Of a stretch of DNA of 64,000 bases, positions 25,626 to 63,755 are shown in pieces (position 1 is the stretch's first letter; every line of letters begins with the position of its first letter). Source of the DNA: Sphingomonas montanisoli (lineage in GTDB: Bacteria > Pseudomonadota > Alphaproteobacteria > Sphingomonadales > Sphingomonadaceae); assembly GCF_008274695.1 (NCBI RefSeq), contig NZ_VTOU01000002.1, positions 62,001 through 126,000 of the forward strand, written 5' to 3'. The translations under genes were made by a program, and so were the position numbers. The notes beneath the pieces were generated by a model, which saw nothing but the letters and a program-made list of their open reading frames with translations, ran no database searches and had not been told where the DNA came from.

Positions 25626-25712
<87 letters not shown>

Positions 25713-35491: not shown

Positions 35492-37387
35492 ATGACGAGT
35501 AGAATGGGTTTCCGACGTGGGATCGCCATGGTGTCGGCGGCATTCGGCTTGGGCGCGGTCGGCGCACACGCCGCGCAATTGCCCGGCATGGGCGAAATGA
35601 CGGGCTCGGTGAAGGCGGCAAAGGCGTTTAAGTCGGCCAAGGTCTATGCGTTCAACAAAGACCGTCAGATCAAATATATGGTCTTCACCGAAAATGGCGC
35701 TTTCCGGGCGACCAATATGTATCCGGGCACCTATACGGTGACGATCGACAAGCCCGGCCTGAAGGCCGCACCCGCGACGATCACGATCGAGCCGGGCAAG
35801 ACAGCGACGCTCAACATCGCAGCGAAGACAGCGCCTGTCGCACCAACCTATATCGGCGGTCAGGTTTATCCGGACACGGAGATCCAGCCCTACAACAAGA
35901 TCTATCCGGCGGGTGCCGGTCGCGACATCATCGAACGGACCTGCCAGGGCTGCCACACGGTTCAGCTCTTTCCTTACAATGTGAAGCGCACCTATCCGAC
36001 GGGACGCAATCTGAAGGACAAGGCCGCATGGGCGATTACGGTCGATCGCATGCACAAGGGACCGGCCTTTGGTGAGCGTGGCGTCGGCTATTGGGATGCC
36101 AAGCTGCTGAAGCCGGGCGAGCGAGAAGTCCTGATCGATTATCTCGCCAAGAATTTCGGGGCTGATTCCAAGCCGCGCGTCGTGCAGCAGGAACTGCCCG
36201 ATCCGCCGCTTGACGAGAAGATGCTCGGCAAGGCCCAGTATATTACCTACTTCTTCCCGAACGTAGCCGGGAAGCCCGACCGCTTCACCCAGCAGATCGA
36301 TTTCTGCAAAGGCGAAGTTTACATCGCAGACCGCGGCCTGCCAGGCCTGGTGAAGCTCGATCCGACAACCGGCAAGCATGTCGACATCGTCGGACATGGC
36401 GGTGGCCACGGCATCACGACCGACGAAAATTGCGGAATCTGGTATACGGGTGAAACCATCCGTCACTACGATCCCAGCACCGACAAGCACGATTCCTACG
36501 TGATCGAGAAGGGCGCCGGTCTCGGGTCGATCACCACCATGTTCAACACCAAGGGCGATCTGTGGATGGCCATGCTCGGTGCTGGCAAGATCGCAAAGTG
36601 GGAACGAACCACCGACACGGTCAAATATTGGGATTTGCCCCAGCCCGGTCTGACCTATGGCAAGTCGCGACCTTATGGTCTCGTCCTCGACCAGAAGGAA
36701 CGTGTCTGGTTCGGCGAGTATCACAAGAGCAGCATCGGCATGTTCGATCCCGCGACCGAAACCTACAAAAGCTTCCGTCTGACGCCGCTTGCGCCGACAA
36801 ACATCCGTCGCCTCGGCGTGGATTCGAAGGGCCACGTCTGGGCTTCGACCTGGGGGCGTCCCAATCTGGTGAAGGGCGGCTCGATGTTTGAGCTCGACCC
36901 GGAAAGCGGGAAGGTGACCGAATATCCCATCGGTATTCCCTACACCAACCCCTACGATACCAAGCCCGACGAACAGGACAATGTCTGGGCTTCGACGGAC
37001 AATTACCTGATCCGGATCGACGCCAAGACTCGCAAGATGACCCGTTATCCCGCGCCCAGCCGCACCGATATTCCGATGATGACGATCGGCAGGAATGGCG
37101 GCGTGTGGTTCACGGATCGTGGCGCTGGCCAGTCTGGCGCCTATGGCGGCACTGCATCGGTCCTCTATCCGGATAAGGATGCGATCACCGAGTTCGCCGC
37201 CTATTTCGGCCCGAACAATACGGCGAACCACCTGTCCAAATATCAGGGACCGCCGCCGCCGAAGGCGGAAGGGGTGATCAAGGAATCGCCCAACGGCGCC
37301 CAGAACTCGGCCACGCCGGGCAATGCTACCGCGCCTAAGATTCTGGGTCCGGTGAAGCCGGACTCGGCCTTGGGTCACCTCGAATAA
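35492..37387 (+). CDS. Secreted fusion: regulatory-like beta-sandwich, cytochrome c, Vgb-type propeller
   Basis: A 631-residue exported protein. Order: signal peptide (to about residue 28, ...GAHAAQ), a carboxypeptidase-regulatory-like beta-sandwich (about 35-112), a c-type cytochrome domain with haem motif CQGCH (151-155), and a seven-bladed Vgb/streptogramin-lyase-like propeller (about 220-590) with repeats such as GHGGGHGITTDENCGIWYTGE and YGLVLDQKERVWFGEYHKSSIG. Covalent haem implies periplasmic redox work. Start 35492 follows GAGG; the upstream ATG at 35405 lacks a signal sequence. It precedes a cytochrome c and two membrane proteins, suggesting an electron route. Enzyme activity is unknown. 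Confidence 0.8.
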   Translation: MTSRMGFRRGIAMVSAAFGLGAVGAHAAQLPGMGEMTGSVKAAKAFKSAKVYAFNKDRQIKYMVFTENGAFRATNMYPGTYTVTIDKPGLKAAPATITIEPGKTATLNIAAKTAPVAPTYIGGQVYPDTEIQPYNKIYPAGAGRDIIERTCQGCHTVQLFPYNVKRTYPTGRNLKDKAAWAITVDRMHKGPAFGERGVGYWDAKLLKPGEREVLIDYLAKNFGADSKPRVVQQELPDPPLDEKMLGKAQYITYFFPNVAGKPDRFTQQIDFCKGEVYIADRGLPGLVKLDPTTGKHVDIVGHGGGHGITTDENCGIWYTGETIRHYDPSTDKHDSYVIEKGAGLGSITTMFNTKGDLWMAMLGAGKIAKWERTTDTVKYWDLPQPGLTYGKSRPYGLVLDQKERVWFGEYHKSSIGMFDPATETYKSFRLTPLAPTNIRRLGVDSKGHVWASTWGRPNLVKGGSMFELDPESGKVTEYPIGIPYTNPYDTKPDEQDNVWASTDNYLIRIDAKTRKMTRYPAPSRTDIPMMTIGRNGGVWFTDRGAGQSGAYGGTASVLYPDKDAITEFAAYFGPNNTANHLSKYQGPPPPKAEGVIKESPNGAQNSATPGNATAPKILGPVKPDSALGHLE

Positions 37388-37395
37388 CAATTGAG

Positions 37396-37431
37396 CGGAG
37401 GCCGGTAATTCCGGCCTCCGTGCCCATTTTT
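37396..37431 (+). terminator. Intrinsic terminator after propeller-cytochrome gene
   Basis: CGGAGGCCGG (37396-37405) pairs perfectly with CCGGCCTCCG (37411-37420) around TAATT, followed by GCCCATTTTT. Stem plus T run is a good intrinsic terminator. It may be partial, since the cytochrome gene follows within 30 bases. Confidence 0.7.
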
Positions 37432-37458
37432 CGCCAAGTTACAGTGTCAGGAATGCGT

Positions 37459-37899
37459 ATGTCCCGCTTCACCCAACCCGCCATCGTCCTCCTGATTGCC
37501 GGATGTGCTTTGGTTGGCACCGCGAGTTTCGGCACCCCAGCGATCGAGCAGGGGCCGGCGGCATCTTCTATCGATCCGCAGATGATCGAGGCGGGGCGCA
37601 AGAGCTTCGAAACCAACTGCGGCGAATGCCACACCATCGTGAAGGACGGCCGGCCATCCATGGGCCCCAATCTGTGGGGTCTGATGGGCAAGAAGCTTGG
37701 ATCCAATAGCAGCGAGTTCACCTATTCGGACGCCCTGTTCAATTCCACGCTGACCTGGACGCCGGAGAATCTTGATAAGTGGATCAAGAGCCCGCCGGAA
37801 TTCGTGCCCGACAATGCAATGCCCTATATCGGCATGGAAGACGCCGCCGAGCGAAAGGCGATCGTCGCCTATATCGGCAAAGCTTCGGCGCAGGAGTGA
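37459..37899 (+). CDS. Class I cytochrome c
   Basis: A 146-residue exported cytochrome. After the signal segment (FTQPAIVLLIAGCALVGTASFG) the mature domain has CGECH as haem-binding motif (near residue 54) and a distal Met candidate in DNAMPYIGM. The fold resembles short mitochondrial-type cytochromes c (GPNLWGLMGKKLGS). Start 37459 gives proper spacing to CAGGA; ATG 37453 touches it. It is the obvious electron partner for the propeller-cytochrome upstream and the membrane proteins downstream. Confidence 0.88.
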   Translation: MSRFTQPAIVLLIAGCALVGTASFGTPAIEQGPAASSIDPQMIEAGRKSFETNCGECHTIVKDGRPSMGPNLWGLMGKKLGSNSSEFTYSDALFNSTLTWTPENLDKWIKSPPEFVPDNAMPYIGMEDAAERKAIVAYIGKASAQE

Positions 37900-37930
37900 T
37901 GGGCGAAGCTGCATAGCGAAGGGGGGCACG

Positions 37931-38392
37931 ATGTTCTGGGTCAGTTTGCTGATCGTTCATGGATTGCTGGCGGTCGCGTTGATGGGGGCGGTCACCCATC
38001 AGGCGGTTGCGGTATTCCGGTCGCGCGGCGGCAAAGCCGGCTTCGTCGAAAGTTATGCCACCGTTCGCGACAAAATGTTCACCAACGCAATCATCTGGCT
38101 CTACCTGGCTACGTTCGTGGTGGGCAGCTGGATCTACACGCATTATCGCTACACCGTCCGCACCATCCTCGAGGATCTGGGCCAGGAAAGCACCGTCGGC
38201 ATCTTCGAGTATAAGGAGCACATCCTCGCGGTCGGGCTCGCGCTGCTGCCGGTCTATTGGCTGCTGTGGCACCGCATTCCGACCGCCGAGGCGAAGGGCG
38301 CGCGCAAGGGCGTGACCGTCTTCATCGCCATAGCCGTCTGGGTCGGCTTTCTCGGCGGGCACATCGTCAACAATGTGCGGGGGCTTATGTAA
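37931..38392 (+). CDS. Four-helix membrane protein with conserved-looking His residues
   Basis: A 153-residue integral membrane protein with four predicted helices. His10, His23, His97 and His144 fall inside or at the edge of helices, an arrangement that could ligate haem b and pass electrons to or from quinone. No named family recognised. It sits between the cytochrome c gene and a second small membrane protein whose start overlaps its stop by one base. A role as membrane anchor of the periplasmic redox module is an inference. Confidence 0.65.
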   Translation: MFWVSLLIVHGLLAVALMGAVTHQAVAVFRSRGGKAGFVESYATVRDKMFTNAIIWLYLATFVVGSWIYTHYRYTVRTILEDLGQESTVGIFEYKEHILAVGLALLPVYWLLWHRIPTAEAKGARKGVTVFIAIAVWVGFLGGHIVNNVRGLM

Positions 38393-38742
38393 TGGATGAT
38401 GCAGGTATCCGGCCCGGTTTTGCCGCCCGCACCTTTCCCGCCTTCTCGATCTTCGCGTCGATCGGCTATTTCCTGTTCATGGGCTTCGGCCTGTCGCCCT
38501 TCGTCTACTATCCCGAAACCGGCGATTTCACCTGGGCGGCGCAGCCCGATCTAGGCCCGCCGATGTTTTGGTATGGCTGGATGGTTTATGCGGCGATCGT
38601 CGGCTTGGCCGGCGGGCTGCTAACCTATCTTCTGCCGATACGCTGGTCGCTCGCACTGGTTCGCGGTCTCGGCTGGCTGCTGTGGGCGGTGCCGACGCTC
38701 ATAATGCTGATCATTCTCTTTCTCCTGCGGCACTATTTCTGA
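38392..38742 (+). CDS. Three-helix membrane protein
   Basis: A 116-residue membrane protein with helices near FAARTFPAFSIFASIGYFLF, WMVYAAIVGLAGGLLTYLLP and LLWAVPTLIMLIILFLLRHYF. Its ATG overlaps the preceding TAA by one base, so both are translated together, probably as subunits of one membrane complex. No family recognised. Confidence 0.62.
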   Translation: MDDAGIRPGFAARTFPAFSIFASIGYFLFMGFGLSPFVYYPETGDFTWAAQPDLGPPMFWYGWMVYAAIVGLAGGLLTYLLPIRWSLALVRGLGWLLWAVPTLIMLIILFLLRHYF

Positions 38743-39186: not shown

Positions 39187-39977
39187 TCCTCTACAGGTTC
39201 CTCGCCGCCGCCTTGTTGCTGGCATTGCCTGGCGCGGGCCAGGCAAGACGGGTCGCGGACATAAAGACGCGCGGCATTCTGACCTGCGGTCTTGCCCCCG
39301 ATATGCCCGGCTTCTCGCTCGTCATTGGGCCGGCATCCGCGACCGGGCTGGACGCGGACCTCTGCCGCGCCGTCGCTCGCGCACTGCTTGGTGACGCCGC
39401 CCATGCCCGCTTCGTCCCGATCGCCACGATCGACCAGTTCCGCTCGGATCATACGATCGATCTCGTCTTTCACGGTCTTACCGCCAAACCGGCGCGCGAA
39501 GAGGCTTGGGGTGTCCGATTTGCTCCGGTCAGCTTTCAGGATGGCCAGGCGATCGCGCTGCATGGCGACGATCCCGCCCGCACAGCCGATGATCTTGATG
39601 GTGCGATGGTTTGCGTCGAGCGCGATAGTATTTTTGCGGGCCAGCTGCGACGCGCTCGCCCAAATATCCGCCAACTGCCGCAGGCGAACGCGACAGCGGC
39701 CCGGATGGCCTTTCAGGCAGGACGTTGCAGGGGATGGAGTTGGGATGTGAGCGGCCTGTTTTCCGCGCTCTCGCATGACAAAGCCAAGCGCTACCGTATC
39801 CTGCCCGATCGTTTCAGCATCGAACCGCTAGCGCCGATCATCCGGGCGGGTGACGCCGATCTGCTCAAGGTTGCCCGCCGCGCGATCCCTGCGGCGTTGA
39901 AGGACGGCACGCTCTACCGCCGTCATTTTGTTGAGGATGCCAACGTGACGCTGGAGCGCCGGCCTCAGCGCTTCTGA
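39183..39977 (+). CDS. Orphan family-3 solute-binding protein (AapJ-like)
   Basis: A 264-residue exported binding protein of the amino-acid ABC type (KTRGILTCGLAPDMPGF, GLDADLCRAVARALLGD, LDGAMVCVERDS). No permease or ATPase gene adjoins it, so it may act as an accessory to the redox module, as binding-protein relatives do for some quinoprotein dehydrogenases. Its start is unclear: a proper signal peptide (ILYRFLAAALLLALPGAGQA) needs the CTG at 39183, which overlaps the previous stop (CTGA); the first conventional start is TTG at 39213, which truncates the signal. Confidence 0.7.
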   Translation: MILYRFLAAALLLALPGAGQARRVADIKTRGILTCGLAPDMPGFSLVIGPASATGLDADLCRAVARALLGDAAHARFVPIATIDQFRSDHTIDLVFHGLTAKPAREEAWGVRFAPVSFQDGQAIALHGDDPARTADDLDGAMVCVERDSIFAGQLRRARPNIRQLPQANATAARMAFQAGRCRGWSWDVSGLFSALSHDKAKRYRILPDRFSIEPLAPIIRAGDADLLKVARRAIPAALKDGTLYRRHFVEDANVTLERRPQRF

Positions 39978-40420
39978 TAGACATTGTGGCAGGCGACGCA
40001 GCTACCGTCGACCGCCATCGCCTTACTCATCAATTGGCGCAGGTCGCCCTTGTCCGCGAGCTGGGCCAGGTCGTCGCTGGCCTGGACAAGCGCCGCCGCC
40101 TTAGCAGCGAAATCGTCGGGCGATTCCCATATGCCGGGCAGGGCGGCGCTATCCGCAACCTTGTCGCTGCCGCTGCCTGCCGGAAACCAGCCCGGCAGCG
40201 CCTTCGAGAGTTCTTGGATAGCCTTCGCATAGTCCAGAACGGCCGCGCGATCGGGCTTCCCGCTCATGATCTGCTGCCCCAGCCCCTGCATCGCGGCGTT
40301 GAACTCCGCCATGTGCGTGCGGCGCTCGATCACGGCGTCGTTGAGGTCGGTGGCGGATGTCGCCTGCGACTGCGCCCCGCCGAGGATCGCGAGGGAGAGA
40401 ATTATGCCTTTGATCCGCAT
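39965..40420 (-). CDS. Cytochrome c' / class II cytochrome c
   Basis: A 151-residue exported protein with a signal peptide (GIILSLAILGGAQSQA) and a helical body ending in the haem motif CVACH eight residues from the C-terminus, the layout of class II cytochromes (c' or c556). It converges on the binding-protein gene, overlapping its end by 13 bases. An island operator lies 26 bases before its start, so it belongs to the regulon although transcribed the other way from the redox module. Confidence 0.85.
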   Translation of the reverse strand: MRIKGIILSLAILGGAQSQATSATDLNDAVIERRTHMAEFNAAMQGLGQQIMSGKPDRAAVLDYAKAIQELSKALPGWFPAGSGSDKVADSAALPGIWESPDDFAAKAAALVQASDDLAQLADKGDLRQLMSKAMAVDGSCVACHNVYQKR

Positions 40421-40486: not shown

Positions 40487-41158
40487 TTACCCATCGGCCC
40501 ATAGCCGCACCAGATTGTGATAGTGGCCCGTGAGCGCGAGCACGGCTTCATCGCTTGCGGCTTCGGCCGTCAACTGCTGCACGGTGCGATCGAGGTCGAA
40601 CAGCATCTGCCGCTGGTGATTGTCGCGCACGATGCTCTGGATCCAGAAGAAAGCGGCGACTCGCTCCCCCTGCGTCACCGGACTGACCCGATGGATGGCC
40701 GTGGCGGGATAAAGGAGCATGTCGCCGGCCGCCAGCTTGACGCGGTGCGTGATCGATCCCTCGCCGATCGTAAGTTCGCCCCCGTCATAATCCTCGGGCG
40801 CGTTGAGAAACAGCGTAGCCGACAGATCGGTGCGGATGCGCTGCCCCCCGGCGTGGCGCAGTGCCCCGTCGATATGATCGCCATAGGTCTCGCCGGGGCC
40901 GTAGCGGTTGAACAGCGGCGGCACGATCCGCGCCGGCAGTGCCCCCGACATGAACAGCGGATTCATTTCGAGCGCGCGGGTGACGATCGCGCCCGCCCGC
41001 GCGGCGCCGGCCGATCCTTCGGCAAGCTGGCGATTGTTCTTCACCTGGGCCGAAAGATGGCCTGCAGTCTGCCGGCCATCGATCCAATCGCCTTCGACAA
41101 GGATCGCGTGCAGTTCGGCCAGATCGTCCTCCCTCAGAACTGCATTGATGTGGAGCAT
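40487..41158 (-). CDS. PiuC/PKHD-type Fe(II), 2-oxoglutarate dioxygenase
   Basis: A 223-residue enzyme of the PKHD hydroxylase family. Iron ligands are in GDHIDGA (HxD) and AIHRVSPV (distal His), and RVAAFFWIQS carries the 2-oxoglutarate-binding Arg. PiuC homologs sit next to catecholate-type siderophore receptors and are usually iron-repressed; their substrate is unknown. Here too the receptor gene lies directly upstream on the same strand (30 bases). Whether this pair answers to iron or to the island regulator is open, but an island operator precedes the receptor. Confidence 0.9.
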   Translation of the reverse strand: MLHINAVLREDDLAELHAILVEGDWIDGRQTAGHLSAQVKNNRQLAEGSAGAARAGAIVTRALEMNPLFMSGALPARIVPPLFNRYGPGETYGDHIDGALRHAGGQRIRTDLSATLFLNAPEDYDGGELTIGEGSITHRVKLAAGDMLLYPATAIHRVSPVTQGERVAAFFWIQSIVRDNHQRQMLFDLDRTVQQLTAEAASDEAVLALTGHYHNLVRLWADG

Positions 41159-41188
41159 GACGGTCTGGCCTCTGCGATAGGGGTCCGA

Positions 41189-43351
41189 TCAGCCTTTCCA
41201 GCTGAGCGTAAGGAGCGCGCTGCGCCCCGCGCCTGGGACGACGTGGAAGGGATGAAGTTGGTCATAGTATAGCTTGTCGGTGAGATTATAGACATTCACC
41301 TGCACGCTGAGCTGTTCGGTAACGTTGTACCGCGCCCGCGCCTCGAACACCGTGTATCCCGGTGCGCTCAGCAGCGAGGCATTGGTGTTCTGCCCCAGCC
41401 TGCTCGACTGATAGATCACGCCGCCTCCGATCGCGAAACGGGGCACCAGCACGTAATCGGTCTGAAGGCCTGCGCTATGCTTGGGCGCAATCGCCAATTG
41501 CTTGCCGATACGAGGCGATCCGCCGGCGGTTGGATTGTCCGAACGGGTGGTTTCGGTATCAAGATAGGTATAGCTCGCACGTACCGTCCAGCGTTCGGTT
41601 ATCGCGCCCACGGCCTCCATTTCGAAGCCGCGCACGCGCTGGCGTCCACCATTGGCATTGACGCTGGGGTTTGCGGGATCCGGCACGCGCACATTGGACT
41701 TCACCACGTCGAACACCGACGCCGTGGCCAGCAGGCGATCGTCCAGCATCCCCCATTTGGTGCCCAGTTCGAAAATGCGGCCCTTTTCCGGATCCGCATT
41801 GATATTCGCCTGCCCCACCGAACGGCCGGCAGAGATCAGGGATTCTATTCCCTCGGCCGATGGATTGAAGCTGTTGGCGTAGCTTAGATAGATGCTGCTC
41901 GACTTGCCAGGCTTGTAGATGAGCGAGCCGCGCAGGCTCGCTTTCTTGTCGACGCGGTTGATGTCGGTCGTGGCGACGGTGGCGCCGGCGGCATTGAACC
42001 CGGCGCTGCGATAGTCGGCGTCGAAACGATCCCACCGGACGCCGAGGACCGCCATCCAGTGCTCGCCCGCCTCGATCGTGTCGAACGCATAGACGCCGAT
42101 CGTGTCGGCACGTGTGCGTGCGCGCAGCCGCACATATTGGCGCGCCTGCGCGAAAGCCTGCTTGGGCGGATTGGCGAGATTGGTGGTGATCACACCTTCG
42201 TGGAAGATGTAGGTCGGGCGCGGCATTTCTCGACCCAGCTCCACGCCCGCGACGATCGTGTGTCGGAAGCCGGCAGCACCCAGTTTCAACGTGACGTCGG
42301 TCTGGTTCTGCACGAAGCGGTCGGTGCTGTAGCCCGAAAATTCGTTACGGGTGAGCGTGATGTTGGTGAGCGGCGTGGTCACGGGCGTGCCGGCGGGAAT
42401 CACGGCTTCGGACGTGCGAAACGATCGCTTGGCCCAGCTTGCGCGAAACTGATTGCGCAGGCGGATCGTGTCCGACACGTCATGCTCGATCCGGGCGGTG
42501 ATGACGTCGACGTTGGTGTCGAGATAGTCGCTGTCGAAACCATAATAATTGTCACGCTTTACCGCCGCAGGGCGCCCGTTGAACCACGGGATGCCGTAAT
42601 CGGGTCGGTTGTCTTCCTCTTGATGAAGCCAGGACAAATAGGCGCGGGTGGGCGTGCCCAGACCTAGCGCGATCGATGGAGCGATGCCCCAGCGCTTCTG
42701 CAGCGCGCCATCGCGGTCTGCGACTTCGGAACGATGCGTCATCGCATTGACCCGAACGGCGATCGTCTCACCTATCGCGCGGTCGATATCGGCGGTGACG
42801 CGGCGCGTATCGTCCGTACCCAGCGCGACATCCAACGTGGTCACAGGATCAAGCGTCGCGGTCTTGCTGATTTGATGGATCACGCCGCCGGTCGATCCAC
42901 GGCCGAACAGCGTCGATCCGGGGCCCTTCAGAACCTCCAGGCTGGCGCTATTGAACGGATCGCGGAAATAATAGCCGTAATCCCGCATTCCATCCAGGAA
43001 GGTGTCGTTGCGCGTCGTGAAGCCGCGCAGGACCAGATTGTTGCCCTGCCAGCTTGTCTCGCCCGCGCCCAGGCTGATTCCCGGCACGATCCGCAAGGCA
43101 TCGGACAGATTGTTGACACCGCGCCGTTCGAGTTCGTCCTCGCCGATGCGAGAGATGGCCTGGGGCGTGTCGATGATGTTGGTCGTGACTTTCGACAAAC
43201 CGATCGTCTGATCGATGACGTTGCCGACAACAATGATGTCGGAACTCGCGCCTTCAGCCGAAGCAGCCGATGCAAGCATAAGCCCGAGTGAGCAGGCAAG
43301 CCCCTTCGATGCCGGTCGCGACATCGCGGCCAGAGTCGTTTTGCAGATCAT
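41189..43351 (-). CDS. TonB-dependent siderophore-type receptor
   Basis: A 720-residue receptor of the Fiu/PiuA group: signal peptide (ASAASAE), TonB box (SSDIIVVGN), plug with LRGFTTRNDTFLDGMRDYGYYFRDPFN and VLKGPGSTLFGRGSTGGVI, and a barrel ending LLTLSWKG. The plug sequence matches receptors for catecholate chelates. It is upstream of the PiuC-type dioxygenase. A strong 20-bp island operator is 20 bases before its start, so its ligand may be a compound of the pathway rather than a siderophore. Confidence 0.9.
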   Translation of the reverse strand: MICKTTLAAMSRPASKGLACSLGLMLASAASAEGASSDIIVVGNVIDQTIGLSKVTTNIIDTPQAISRIGEDELERRGVNNLSDALRIVPGISLGAGETSWQGNNLVLRGFTTRNDTFLDGMRDYGYYFRDPFNSASLEVLKGPGSTLFGRGSTGGVIHQISKTATLDPVTTLDVALGTDDTRRVTADIDRAIGETIAVRVNAMTHRSEVADRDGALQKRWGIAPSIALGLGTPTRAYLSWLHQEEDNRPDYGIPWFNGRPAAVKRDNYYGFDSDYLDTNVDVITARIEHDVSDTIRLRNQFRASWAKRSFRTSEAVIPAGTPVTTPLTNITLTRNEFSGYSTDRFVQNQTDVTLKLGAAGFRHTIVAGVELGREMPRPTYIFHEGVITTNLANPPKQAFAQARQYVRLRARTRADTIGVYAFDTIEAGEHWMAVLGVRWDRFDADYRSAGFNAAGATVATTDINRVDKKASLRGSLIYKPGKSSSIYLSYANSFNPSAEGIESLISAGRSVGQANINADPEKGRIFELGTKWGMLDDRLLATASVFDVVKSNVRVPDPANPSVNANGGRQRVRGFEMEAVGAITERWTVRASYTYLDTETTRSDNPTAGGSPRIGKQLAIAPKHSAGLQTDYVLVPRFAIGGGVIYQSSRLGQNTNASLLSAPGYTVFEARARYNVTEQLSVQVNVYNLTDKLYYDQLHPFHVVPGAGRSALLTLSWKG

Positions 43352-43439: not shown

Positions 43440-44831
43440 TCAGGCGGCGATTGCGGCAGCTGCACGACCAGCGATTTTACCCAGCGTCGTGGCGGCGAGC
43501 AGTCCGTTGCCCGCCAGATAGCCATCGGCGCCCGGGCCCGAGATGCCGCGCGCTGCGCCGCCGCCTGCGAACAGATTGGGGAATGTGCCTCCGTTCGCCT
43601 TTACGACATATGCTTCGTCATCGACGATCAACCCGCCCTGGGTATGGAAGAGTGCGCCCGTAACCTTGGCCGCCCGATAGGGCGCGGCCAGCGGCGTCTT
43701 GCCCGTGAAATCGCGCCCGAATTGATCGCTGACGGTGCCGTCCACCATCTGCTCCACCCCGGCCAGCGTCGCTGCAAGCGAGCCCAAGGGCAGGCCGGTT
43801 CGGGCGGCAAGGTCCTCGACTGAGGCTGCCTCGATCACGGCGCCGGCGCGCAACGCATCATGATAATCGTCAAATGCCATCATCAATTGATGACGCTTCT
43901 CGTCGAAGATCGAAAAGGCGATGTGGCCGGGCTGCGCATTCACCTTGGCAGCCTGTTCCGAATAGCCCGCAGCCTCGTTCGAAAAGCGCTCGCCGAGGCT
44001 GTTGACCTGAAAGCCGCCCTCCATGATCAGCGGCCACAGGATAGGGACACCATGCCCCACCGCCAGCCCGGCATGGCCCTGATAGGCGGAAACGTCGGCT
44101 ATGGCCGCGCCGATCTGCTCGCCCCACAGCAGAGCATCGCCCTTGTTGCCCGGATGGCCGTGGAAGGTCGCATCGGCCATTTCCGGGATCAGTCGGCTGA
44201 CGAGGTCGGCATTGCCGCCAAAACCCGAACAGGCGAGGATCAGCGCACCGCAGCCGATATCGTAGCGCTCGCCGTCCGGCCGGACGACGTGGATGCCGAC
44301 GACGCGATCCTCGTGCATGTGCAGCGCTTCGCAGGTTGCGTTGGACAATATGGTAACGCCGGCTCGCTCGGATGCGTTTTCCAGCGCCGCCATCAGTTCG
44401 CCGCCGGCGCGATTTGGGGTGCCGTACATCCGCTTGGCGCTGTGGCCGGGATATAGCCAGCCGTCGGCCAGGCTCAACGGTACGCCGTGAATGTCACGCA
44501 ACCAGGCGATCGTCTCGGCCGATTCCTGCGCCAGCAGGCGCGCAAAGGCCGGGTCGGTGCGTCCCTTCGTCTTGGCCATGATGTCGGTGACGAAGCGCTC
44601 GGGTGAATCATCGATCCCGGCGACTTCCTGCTCCGGCGTGCCCGCGGCGGGGATCAGCCCGGTCGACATCGCGGTCGACCCAAGCGGGGTCGCGTCGCGT
44701 TCGATCACCAGTACATCCGCCCCGCCGTCGCTCGCGGCCAGGGCCGCGCTCAACCCGGTGCCGCCACCGCCCACGATGACCACGGGGAAGGACATTTCGA
44801 ACGAGACGGGGTCGCGCTTGATCTGCGGCAT
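43440..44831 (-). CDS. FAD-dependent oxidoreductase, fumarate reductase/ketosteroid dehydrogenase type
   Basis: A 463-residue flavoprotein. FAD binding: PVVIVGGGGTGLSAALAASDGGADVLVIER (N-terminus), and the C-terminal FPNLFAGGGAARGISGPGADGYLAGNG. The family removes or adds hydrogens across a C-C bond next to a carbonyl (fumarate, urocanate, 3-ketosteroids). In this operon it could desaturate a succinate- or succinimide-like compound to the maleate level. Start 44831 follows GAGGA; a TTG at 44873 would overlap leuD. It is last in the CoA-transferase/LeuC/LeuD operon. No signal peptide, so cytosolic. Confidence 0.82.
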   Translation of the reverse strand: MPQIKRDPVSFEMSFPVVIVGGGGTGLSAALAASDGGADVLVIERDATPLGSTAMSTGLIPAAGTPEQEVAGIDDSPERFVTDIMAKTKGRTDPAFARLLAQESAETIAWLRDIHGVPLSLADGWLYPGHSAKRMYGTPNRAGGELMAALENASERAGVTILSNATCEALHMHEDRVVGIHVVRPDGERYDIGCGALILACSGFGGNADLVSRLIPEMADATFHGHPGNKGDALLWGEQIGAAIADVSAYQGHAGLAVGHGVPILWPLIMEGGFQVNSLGERFSNEAAGYSEQAAKVNAQPGHIAFSIFDEKRHQLMMAFDDYHDALRAGAVIEAASVEDLAARTGLPLGSLAATLAGVEQMVDGTVSDQFGRDFTGKTPLAAPYRAAKVTGALFHTQGGLIVDDEAYVVKANGGTFPNLFAGGGAARGISGPGADGYLAGNGLLAATTLGKIAGRAAAAIAA

Positions 44832-44857
44832 GGAAGGTCGAATCCTCGCGGCGTTGG

Positions 44858-45463
44858 TTAAAGATAGGCCCAAGGTCGCGCCTGCCTGTCACGGTCGTGA
44901 TAGGCGGCGATCTCGGCCTTGCGGATCAGGGTAAGGTCAATCGCGTCAAGCCCGCCGAGCAGCATGGTCTTGCCTTCGTCCTCGATCGTAAACGACCAGT
45001 TCCGACCCGATGGGGCGGTCACGGTCTGGTTCGGCAGGTCGACGGTCAGCATGCCGGGCGTCGCCTCCAGATCGGCAGCGATTTCCGTGGCATCGGCTTC
45101 GACCGGCACGATCCCGTTGCGCACGCAATTGCCCCGGAAGATCGGGTTGAACGAGGGCGCGATCACCACGCGGAAGCCATATTCGGCCAGCGCCCACGCC
45201 GCATGTTCGCGGCTTGATCCACAGCCGAAATTCTCCCCCGACAGCAGGATCGCTGCGTCGGCGAAATCGGGCCGGTTCAGGATGAAGTCGGGATTTGGAG
45301 CGCGCGATCCGATTGCGTTGTACCGCCAGCCGGCGAACAGGCCCGCCGCCAGCCCGGTCTTGCCCACCGACGTCATCTCCCGCGACGGAATAATCGCGTC
45401 GGTATCGATATTATTGCGTAGCAACGGCGCGGCGACCGCGCTGAGCCGATCGAATGGGGTCAT
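44858..45463 (-). CDS. LeuD-like small subunit of an aconitase-family hydro-lyase
   Basis: A 201-residue small-subunit protein with the swivelling domain: NNIDTDAIIP and SGENFGCGSSREHAAWAL, the 3-isopropylmalate dehydratase pattern. It overlaps the LeuC-like gene by 4 bases. The pair lacks other leucine genes (leuA, leuB) around it and is embedded between a CoA-transferase and a flavoprotein, so it is more likely a catabolic hydratase such as a maleate, citraconate or dimethylmaleate hydratase, which share this fold. Confidence 0.88.
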   Translation of the reverse strand: MTPFDRLSAVAAPLLRNNIDTDAIIPSREMTSVGKTGLAAGLFAGWRYNAIGSRAPNPDFILNRPDFADAAILLSGENFGCGSSREHAAWALAEYGFRVVIAPSFNPIFRGNCVRNGIVPVEADATEIAADLEATPGMLTVDLPNQTVTAPSGRNWSFTIEDEGKTMLLGGLDAIDLTLIRKAEIAAYHDRDRQARPWAYL

Positions 45464-59615: not shown

Positions 59616-60014
59616 TCAGCGGGCGAACTCGATCAGATCCCACAGATTGCCGTAGAGATCTTCGAACACCGCGACCGTGCCGTAGTCGTGCGTGGCGGGT
59701 TCGCGGACGAAGCGGACACCTTTGGCGGTGAAGGCGGCATGATCGCGGGCGAAATCGTCGGTCGCGAGAAACAGAAAGACGCGCCCGCCCGCCTGATCGC
59801 CGACGGAAGCCGCCTGTTCGGGCGTGGCGGCGCGGGCGAGGAGAATATTGGTAGCGTTCTCGGGCGCGCCCGGCGGGCGGATCGTGACCCACCTCTTGTC
59901 CTGCTCGGGCTGATAGGTGTCCTCGACCAGCGTGAAACCGAGAGTGCCGACATAGAAAGCGAGCGCCTCGTCATAGTCGCGGACGATCAGGGCGATGTGG
60001 GCGAGATGGGGCAT
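59616..60014 (-). CDS. VOC-family (glyoxalase/bleomycin-resistance fold) protein
   Basis: A 132-residue protein with two beta-alpha-beta-beta-beta modules. Candidate metal ligands are His in LAHIALIVRDYDEALAFY (about 5) and Glu in YGNLWDLIEF near the C-terminus. Family members include glyoxalase I, dioxygenases and resistance proteins; the sequence alone does not say which. It is separate from its neighbours. Confidence 0.85.
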   Translation of the reverse strand: MPHLAHIALIVRDYDEALAFYVGTLGFTLVEDTYQPEQDKRWVTIRPPGAPENATNILLARAATPEQAASVGDQAGGRVFLFLATDDFARDHAAFTAKGVRFVREPATHDYGTVAVFEDLYGNLWDLIEFAR

Positions 60015-60141
60015 TGAACACGTATAAATGGTGAGTCAGGATAAAACGAGGCGAGCCAGTGTTCGCCAAGTGTACCATGATATAGAAGGTTGTTTAGCTG
60101 AGTTGTTCATCGTACGTTCTCTTTAAAGGAGGCGATTCGCG

Positions 60142-61371
60142 ATGGAAGAGGTTTCTACGATCGAGCAGGCTGTAGATCAGGTTTCCGATAAGCTGGAAGC
60201 CCCCATTACCGGTTCATCAGAGGCCAGTACTAAGGCGAAGAACGCTGCGAGACCTAGCTCCAAGAGCGGAACAAATAAGGCTGGAAGTGCATCTAAGGCT
60301 GGTGCAGCCAAGGCAATTCCTGCGAGCAAGAAGGATATCGCCTCGAAGCCTAGTAAACCTGCGGCAGCACCTTGGACGTTCCCGAAAACCACTCTCGAAG
60401 AGGCGATAAAGATCGCACGGGCGATTGAGGAGCAAAATGCGGGTAACCCAATGAAGCCCGATATGCTCGCTAAGGCTGTTGGATATAACTCGGTAGCCGA
60501 TTGGCGATTTCTGGACCTTTTACGAGCGGCAAATCAGTACGGCTTAGTCACCGGGAGTGGAAAAATATCGCCGGTTGGGCTGACTCAAATCGGTCAAGAC
60601 GTTGTTGCTCCGAGTGCGCCAACTGCGCGGCCGAAGGCCCTCATGGCTGCGTTTCGCTCGGTCGAAGATTTTCAGAAAGTAGAAGATTTCTATAATGGTA
60701 AGAAGCTACCAGAAGATGAGTTCTTCGAAAACAATCTATACCGAGAATTCGGCATCCCTCGTGAACGAGTTAAATCGTTCATCGAGACATTTACTAGTAA
60801 CTTAAATTACTTACATGCTTTCCGCCCCGATCGCTCGGGAACCGGACCGGTAGTGACGACGGAATTCCGTCAGAGAGAACCCGACGTGTCCGGGATAGAT
60901 GATGGAGGAACAGGTCGTCAATTTTTAGACACTTGCTTTGTAATGATGCCATTTGGACAATGGATGGATGCTTATTACCGAGAAATTTTTGTTCCAGCTA
61001 TTCGTGAAGCTGGTTTAGAGCCAATCAGAGCTGATGAGTTATTCTCCACAGGATCCGTTATCGAGCAAATCTGGGAGCAAATATCGCGAGCCAAAGTGCT
61101 CTTGGCGGATTTAACCGGGAAGAATGCAAACGTATTTTACGAGCTGGGTTTAGCTCACGCTGCCAATAAACCAGTAGTTTTCACCACAGGAGATTTGGAA
61201 GATGTTCCTTTCGATCTTCGTCATCTCCGCGTTGCTGTTTATGATATCCGTGATCCAGCATGGGGTGAGAAACTACGAAATACGCTGTCTGTTTATCTAA
61301 AGGCAGCCAAAGCGGATCCCGGAAAATCGGTACCCCAGCCATTTAGGAAGCAAATGGCCGTAGCTGAATAG
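60142..61371 (+). CDS. TIR/nucleoside-deoxyribosyltransferase-like protein, candidate defence effector
   Basis: A 409-residue cytosolic protein. Residues 1-75 are Lys/Ala/Ser-rich and disordered, about 76-200 look like a winged-helix module (KPDMLAKAVGYNSVADWRFLDLLRAANQYGLV), and about 262-390 carry the TIR-like/NDT-like fold: CFVMMPFGQWMDAYY, ISRAKVLLADLTGKNANVFY and then ELGLAHAANKPVVF, with the Glu of FYELG at the catalytic place. Such domains cleave or bind nucleotides and NAD in signalling and phage defence. Codons are clearly more AT-rich than the neighbours, so the gene is probably acquired. A strong AAAGGAGG precedes the ATG. Defence is a hypothesis. Confidence 0.7.
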   Translation: MEEVSTIEQAVDQVSDKLEAPITGSSEASTKAKNAARPSSKSGTNKAGSASKAGAAKAIPASKKDIASKPSKPAAAPWTFPKTTLEEAIKIARAIEEQNAGNPMKPDMLAKAVGYNSVADWRFLDLLRAANQYGLVTGSGKISPVGLTQIGQDVVAPSAPTARPKALMAAFRSVEDFQKVEDFYNGKKLPEDEFFENNLYREFGIPRERVKSFIETFTSNLNYLHAFRPDRSGTGPVVTTEFRQREPDVSGIDDGGTGRQFLDTCFVMMPFGQWMDAYYREIFVPAIREAGLEPIRADELFSTGSVIEQIWEQISRAKVLLADLTGKNANVFYELGLAHAANKPVVFTTGDLEDVPFDLRHLRVAVYDIRDPAWGEKLRNTLSVYLKAAKADPGKSVPQPFRKQMAVAE

Positions 61372-61374
61372 GCG

Positions 61375-61662
61375 TCATTCCTCCCGCAGCGCTATTCCTA
61401 GAGCCGAAATTTCAGCGGAGAGATTGGACACCTCACCTTCCAAACCCTCTCCATTTATCATGCTATAGGTGCCGGCTTGGACCGCTGCAGCAGCTTGGAT
61501 AAACGATCCGACGAGAGCCGGATTGGATGCGGAAAAGCCTGGGCCAAATTCGTGGTCAATTTTGTTAATCGCGCTGTTTAGAAATTGACCTACGATATAG
61601 GAGCTGTCGCTTGCGAGTTGCTCCCATGTAGCAGAGATTTCATATCTACTTGCCCTAGCCAT
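61375..61662 (-). CDS. Small helical protein convergent to the TIR-like gene
   Basis: A 95-residue protein with no signal or membrane helix (YEISATWEQLASDSSYIVGQ, then AEISALGIALREE at the C-terminus). Composition is AT-richer than the core genes, like the TIR-like gene, whose stop lies 3 bases from its own. The two may have arrived together; it could be an accessory or antidote, but nothing in the sequence proves that. No family recognised. Confidence 0.55.
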   Translation of the reverse strand: MARASRYEISATWEQLASDSSYIVGQFLNSAINKIDHEFGPGFSASNPALVGSFIQAAAAVQAGTYSMINGEGLEGEVSNLSAEISALGIALREE

Positions 61663-61688
61663 CTTGGTTCTCCCGTAATATTTTTACC

Positions 61689-63755
<2,067 letters not shown>

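Follow-up and report, generated by a model that had tools for sequence, protein, structure and literature searches.

A recurrent gene module of Sphingomonas montanisoli encoding a haem-c/Vgb-like propeller protein, a cytochrome c and a small membrane pair: a probable periplasmic electron-transfer system

Vgb (virginiamycin B lyase) is a single-domain enzyme without haem. Thiocyanate dehydrogenase is a multi-histidine copper propeller and, like N2O reductase, carries a cluster of propeller histidine ligands, and the quinohaemoprotein alcohol dehydrogenases that use pyrroloquinoline quinone (PQQ) are accompanied by a cytochrome c-550 and by binding proteins of the MxaJ/XoxJ/PedG type. The gene module described here can be compared with all of them. 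It was found in a stretch of 64,000 nucleotides (positions 62,001 to 126,000 of contig NZ_VTOU01000002.1, hereafter "the window"), which is part of one contig of the 4.1-Mb genome of Sphingomonas montanisoli, and its central product, named VgbCyt, joins a transthyretin-like (TTR-like) domain, a haem-c segment, a Vgb-like propeller and a conserved C-terminal tail. The genes of a class-I cytochrome c, of two small membrane proteins (MemA and MemB), of a separate TTR-like protein and of a solute-binding protein (SBP) of the SBP_bac_3 family follow it (Table 1).

With the PQQ quinohaemoproteins the module has in common a periplasmic propeller with haem c, a class-I cytochrome as acceptor and an adjacent orphan SBP_bac_3 protein; it differs from them in that VgbCyt shows no PQQ-domain match (no PQQ family among its Pfam matches at E <= 1) and has an extra TTR domain, and in the addition of MemA and MemB. 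The copper propellers have their histidine cluster, whereas a single propeller histidine (His325) is invariant in VgbCyt; assignment of VgbCyt as a copper or PQQ enzyme was rejected for want of either signature. The propeller fold is shared with Vgb (PDB 2qc5, 2z2n, 2z2o, 2z2p), the best structural match at 15-19% identity, from which VgbCyt differs by the absence of the catalytic histidine and by a sequence score below the Pfam cut-off. CylK is reported to be another Vgb-like propeller with a different chemistry (eLife, PMC8916777). A report on thiocyanate dehydrogenase and cytochrome c552 (PMC9456337) describes a periplasmic enzyme whose putative electron acceptor is a cytochrome c with one haem, an arrangement similar to that of the module. 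No publication on a haem-c/Vgb-propeller fusion was found in the open-access literature searched, which does not prove that none exists elsewhere.

Because its gene pairings are met again in other genomes, the module is more than a chance arrangement; it is real and recurrent. It very probably serves periplasmic electron transfer and, since related gene sets occur in other bacteria, is probably a system of this kind that has so far gone unstudied. An earlier note on this DNA had described a 631-residue secreted protein with TTR-like domain, CQGCH motif and Vgb-type propeller, followed by a cytochrome c and two overlapping membrane proteins, as a redox-type module beside a TonB receptor. Coordinates, length and motifs of the first protein were correct, with Pfam and predicted fold in agreement; the cytochrome c, the one-base overlap of the membrane genes and the receptor directly 5' were likewise confirmed.

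In Pfam scans, VgbCyt scored 39.4 bits against CarboxypepD_reg (cut-off 32.3) and 47.7 bits against Vgb_lyase (PF24684), just below the cut-off of 50, its homologue at locus L041 reaching 70.5 bits. The fold predicted from 3 sequences (mean predicted local distance difference test score, pLDDT, 59.5) comprises a beta-sandwich (residues 34-110) and a propeller (about 250-584), both of fair confidence, and a haem segment of low confidence (pLDDT <50 across 115-210). The top matches of the predicted propeller among solved structures are Vgb entries (Z 31.4-32.3 over 283-285 residues), the next propellers scoring 28.8. The haem motif (C151, C154, H155) is invariant in 10/10 aligned members of the closer subfamily, as is His325; Met187, the probable distal haem ligand, is present in nine of the ten and replaced by Gln in L041. 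In an alignment of 7 VgbCyt sequences His325 was the sole invariant histidine outside the haem motif, His306 being kept in 6/7. The histidine of PHGITFG in 2qc5, a Staphylococcus cohnii lyase, which we equate with His270 of S. aureus Vgb through an inferred numbering offset, falls on Pro528 when counted back from a shared Trp, or on a gap in the HMMER alignment, and that of RPHAITAG falls on Tyr488, invariant in 10/10. A PDB entry title describes the Vgb H270A mutant as catalytically inactive; the name "lyase" is thus unsupported for VgbCyt, in whose propeller this histidine, needed for Vgb activity, is missing. The lyase analogy of the earlier note was dropped for this reason. The cytochrome c encoded next to VgbCyt found cytochrome c entries as its top PDB matches, e.g. 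1crc/1hrc, the horse protein (4.6e-22).

Homologues of VgbCyt were collected from 98 genomes (the window's own included) and two plasmids. A CxxCH motif and a Vgb-like propeller on one open frame were found at L010, L014, L016, L024, L025, L030, L032 and L039; L033 also has CxxCH with a short match only, and the fusion is therefore counted at at least eight other loci. Together with nine copies in one metagenome-assembled genome (MAG), this contradicts the expectation that a cytochrome-coupled propeller would be new as an architecture; for such a function, the literature searched yielded no precedent. Vgb-like propeller frames without CxxCH also occur (L011-L013 and L040 among others). At E <= 1e-20, VgbCyt was found in no genome besides the window's in a draw of 385 genomes from the class or of 398 from the phylum. 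None of 13 sampled genomes of the same genus has it (G001 gave a weak partial match). In the large draws at most 3 VgbCyt candidates, and two for the related family TTRcyt713 (see below), were scored per genome, and the counts are therefore lower bounds. Viral contigs yielded neither VgbCyt nor MemA; plasmids gave two weak VgbCyt matches and no MemA.

The nearest relative found is that of L041 (39% identity across the best segment), in the MAG G840, which carries nine VgbCyt paralogues (E <= 2e-135). The surroundings of all nine were examined. A TTR-like gene adjoins five of them (L041, L091, the second copy of L092, L093, L094) and a homologue of the window's cytochrome c two (second copy of L092, L094; 36-37% identity); an SBP homologue lies near one (L094), and a TonB receptor directly 5' of one (L095; 26% over 839 columns against the window's receptor). 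The resulting gene orders are VgbCyt-cytochrome c-SBP plus TTR in L094, TTR-VgbCyt-cytochrome c in L092 and TonB-VgbCyt in L095, the copies of L089, L090 and the first of L092 having none of these neighbours. With TTR, cytochrome c, SBP and TonB genes all found beside VgbCyt copies, this MAG repeats the gene set of the window in part. The window's flavin adenine dinucleotide (FAD) dehydrogenase and a gene close to VgbCyt in L094 share 57% identity, a synteny that counts little because genes 57% and 51% identical also occur in 2/19 other class genomes. Near the VgbCyt genes of the MAG there are also a cytochrome P460-family protein (L041:7720-8223, minus strand) and a cytochrome c in which CxxCH occurs twice (L041:9377-10024, plus strand), a hint of further redox partners.

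MemA contains six histidines (10, 23, 71, 97, 114, 144). His10, His23 and His144 are invariant in 7/7 aligned sequences (window included) and His97 is kept in 6/7 (Gln in one), while His71 and His114 vary. By hydropathy and charge, His10, His97 and His144 are predicted to lie toward the periplasm and His23 toward the cytoplasm. The conserved histidines would fit haem ligands on the periplasmic side, and a metal or quinone site would fit too; the chances that MemA carries b-haem are about even. MemB, with conserved GP and YGW residues, has no invariant histidine in 5 sequences, so that MemA alone of the pair is haem-like. The earlier note had taken the pair for haem-b-like membrane proteins and had named His10, His23, His97 and His144 of MemA, a choice borne out by their conservation; for MemB the description does not hold. 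Pfam scans of five MemA members gave nothing significant (weak matches to Coa3_cc, E 0.05, and DUF420, E 7.1; HemJ, CopD and DUF2269 absent), and membership in a known family found no support; no PDB match was obtained at E <= 10. A fold comparison of MemA, which returned generic helical bundles (best Z 9.7, root-mean-square deviation 8.5), was not used. For MemA/MemB, the supposed membrane partner, no Pfam family was found.

In the class draw, MemA has strong matches in three genomes besides the window's, G341 (two copies), G421 and G477, at 44-50% identity over the alignment; weak matches (three class-draw genomes at E 0.004-0.008, one more at 0.007) were dropped. It was also found in G839, through 11 genomes of the order of G477, and once in G840. 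A phylum draw of 299 genomes yielded MemA at E <= 1e-8 in that of the window alone (at most 12 candidates scored per genome). MemB follows MemA in all six other loci (L050, L051, L052, L053, L059, L064; 5 genomes). A TTR-like gene comes after the pair in 4/6 (L050, L052, L053, L059), none being found in L051 or L064, and SBP homologues lie near MemA in 2/6 (L050, L052), the SBP identity being 32-34% in L050, L052 and L094.

Directly 5' of MemA-MemB-TTR in L059 stands the gene of a 713-residue relative, TTRcyt713. This family comprises a Microvirga ossetica protein (WP_099514940.1, annotated "carboxypeptidase-like regulatory domain-containing protein") and relatives in L059 and G840, and has the same order of TTR, haem c and propeller as VgbCyt; in a profile alignment by hhalign the two families correspond from one end to the other (98.6%, 465 columns). 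No function on record was found for it. It differs from VgbCyt in additional residues invariant in 6/6 sequences (His 268, 352, 418, 419 and 619, Cys 377, 414, 572 and 586), which may form a metal site in a haem-c propeller protein. All five other MemA genomes carry TTRcyt713, which was found in 9/384 other class genomes at E <= 1e-40 (a lower bound). For the class draw the overlap (3/3 MemA genomes) gives P = 9e-6, rising to 4e-4 when each genus counts once, taking the MemA and TTRcyt713 draws, of equal size and agreeing visible genome labels, as one small sample. The MAG G840 holds TTRcyt713 relatives at four places (C7, C2, C64, C12) and one MemA; with many paralogues and one MemA, it looks as if several substrate-specific proteins shared one membrane partner.

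The module lies in a block whose G+C content at third codon positions (GC3) is low: the mean over 27066-48155 is 0.756 (20 picked genes), against a mean of 0.812 (length-weighted 0.834; 29 genes) for the flanks to 58 kb (U-test P = 2e-5), the genes being mechanical open-frame choices of ours. This block begins 1.35 kb past a tRNA-Leu (25626-25712); no flanking direct repeat of the tRNA-Leu end longer than 12 bases was found within the window. Lower GC3, the nearby tRNA-Leu and absence from sampled relatives suggest that 25626-48155 is an acquired catabolic island. Its genes include those of an HMG-CoA-lyase-like and an isochorismatase-like protein, two PuuE-like deacetylases, an aromatic-acid-type transporter of the major facilitator superfamily (MFS), LeuC/LeuD-like proteins, a class-III CoA-transferase and the FAD dehydrogenase. 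As the island carries genes of these catabolic types, the compound on which the module acts probably serves as a source of carbon or nitrogen; a pathway from a cyclic imide to a substituted maleate could be guessed from the PuuE-, isochorismatase-, LeuCD-, HMG-CoA-lyase-like and CoA-transferase genes. An iron-uptake-like pair also lies in the island (40487-43351, minus strand), consisting of a PKHD-type 2-oxoglutarate-Fe(II) hydroxylase and a second TonB-receptor-like frame (41189-43351, recognised by eye).

The reading that we favour, with an even chance of being right as a whole, is that of a substrate-binding periplasmic haem-c oxidoreductase that would pass electrons to the cytochrome c, with MemA/MemB as membrane partner. 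The adjacent TonB receptor is probably the outer-membrane entry for the ligand. The VgbCyt propeller would bind the imported compound, possibly with help from the small TTR-like protein and the SBP, and the module would perform one step in the use of that compound. Electrons would pass from the single haem c of VgbCyt to the co-encoded class-I cytochrome c and on to an oxidase; that VgbCyt oxidises a substrate is about an even bet. MemA and MemB would form a small membrane complex, probably with a b-haem near the periplasmic face on His10 together with His144 and/or His97, and this complex would anchor the soluble proteins or exchange electrons with them. Nothing supports delivery of electrons to the quinone pool, as had been proposed; the soluble partner that is seen repeatedly, in the window, L092 and L094, belongs to the class-I cytochromes c, and the cytochrome c pool is therefore favoured.

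Several observations weigh against this reading. One haem c is the only redox cofactor that could be recognised in VgbCyt, which shows no signature of PQQ, flavin or a copper site, and a cytochrome c neighbour was found at only 2/9 VgbCyt loci of the MAG. In the Pfam and PDB searches MemA has no sequence resemblance to known haem proteins, and its single-sequence model (pLDDT 70, predicted template modelling score 0.46) gave generic helical matches only. MemA stands next to no other VgbCyt locus that was fetched, and in L050 and L052 MemA-MemB-TTR are alone among housekeeping-type genes. As for TTRcyt713, it is absent from the window's genome, 6/9 class genomes that have it are without MemA, and the co-occurrence test is not fully independent because the query was selected for its position next to MemA in G839, a genome related to G477.

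The lack of a second redox cofactor in VgbCyt would suit a protein that only binds a ligand, for binding or sensing, its haem being structural or sensory and MemA/MemB a haem-free anchor or assembly factor; the replacement of Met187 by Gln in L041 and the want of a haem-protein match for MemA point the same way. We consider it improbable, given a haem motif invariant in 10/10, a cytochrome c co-encoded in three loci, and MemA histidines 10, 23 and 144 that are invariant while the others vary. The periplasmic side on which three conserved MemA histidines are predicted would also be compatible with the opposite direction of flow, in which electrons of the quinol pool would travel outwards by way of MemA/MemB and the cytochromes to a propeller-bound ligand, such as a ferric chelate or other metal complex imported by the TonB receptor, from which the metal would be freed. 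The receptor's best NCBIfam match is a siderophore-receptor family (150 bits, below the cut-off of 223.5), and the PKHD hydroxylase and second receptor-like frame lie nearby; against this, the island has its CoA-transferase, LeuCD-like, HMG-CoA-lyase-like and isochorismatase-like genes, and several of the relatives' neighbours selected for scanning are catabolic (amidohydrolases, alpha/beta hydrolases, an aldehyde dehydrogenase and an MFS protein like the window's aromatic-acid-type one), so that such a reductive system is judged unlikely. Other neighbours scanned (M24 peptidase, sodium symporter, DUF1552) were uninformative. A Vgb-type lyase with an accessory cytochrome, in which the propeller would open a substrate ring and the haem have a separate role, would agree with Vgb as the closest fold and with the PF24684 score; that score is under the family cut-off, the supposed His270 has no histidine partner in VgbCyt and the second Vgb histidine faces the invariant Tyr488, which makes this version very improbable.

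A wider and more speculative extension of the favoured reading, which we hold tentatively and think rather doubtful, is that VgbCyt and TTRcyt713 form a superfamily, so far undescribed, of respiratory oxidoreductases of the periplasm. With at least 13 copies in one MAG, it would have diversified much as the PQQ dehydrogenases have, and its members would share a dedicated b-haem membrane complex of a new family, MemA/MemB. If so, a periplasmic redox enzyme family with a membrane partner would be concealed under annotations like "Vgb family" and "carboxypeptidase-like regulatory domain protein". The propeller would then offer a substrate site that is linked to a cytochrome and has neither PQQ nor flavin nor a recognised copper site, raising the question of what does the chemistry.

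Table 1. Features of the module, its surroundings and the TTRcyt713 relatives (window positions, or locus and position)
Feature	Coordinates	Strand	Remarks
TonB-dependent receptor, 808 aa	32979..35405	+	PF00593 123.7 bits, PF07715 49.9 bits; directly 5' of VgbCyt
VgbCyt, 631 aa, secreted	35492..37387	+	ATG 35492 to stop 37387; TTR-like domain, haem-c segment (one CQGCH), Vgb-like propeller, conserved C-terminal tail
Class-I cytochrome c, 146 aa	37459..37899	+	CGECH; PF00034 37.6 bits (cut-off 21.3)
MemA, 153 aa, four predicted transmembrane helices	37931..38392	+	both ends outside by charge (hydropathy and charge)
MemB, 116 aa, three predicted transmembrane helices	38392..38742	+	ATG overlaps MemA stop by one base
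Small secreted TTR-like (CarboxypepD_reg) protein, 132 aa	38788..39186	+	PF13620 39.2 bits
Orphan SBP_bac_3 periplasmic binding protein	39213..39977	+	PF00497 36.3 bits; start codon uncertain
FAD_binding_2 dehydrogenase (TcuA/flavocytochrome-like)	43440..44873	-	same island; link to module weak
TTRcyt713	L059:9298-11436	-	
TTRcyt713	L090:1720-3900	-	
TTRcyt713	L097, L098, L099, L109		

A cytochrome c' gene (39965-40420, minus strand; PF01322 85.8 bits) is convergent with the module and has a high GC3 like that of the flanks. Further along, at positions 60001-62000, the G+C content drops to 0.51, most of the window having about 0.65, and few genes are predicted there.

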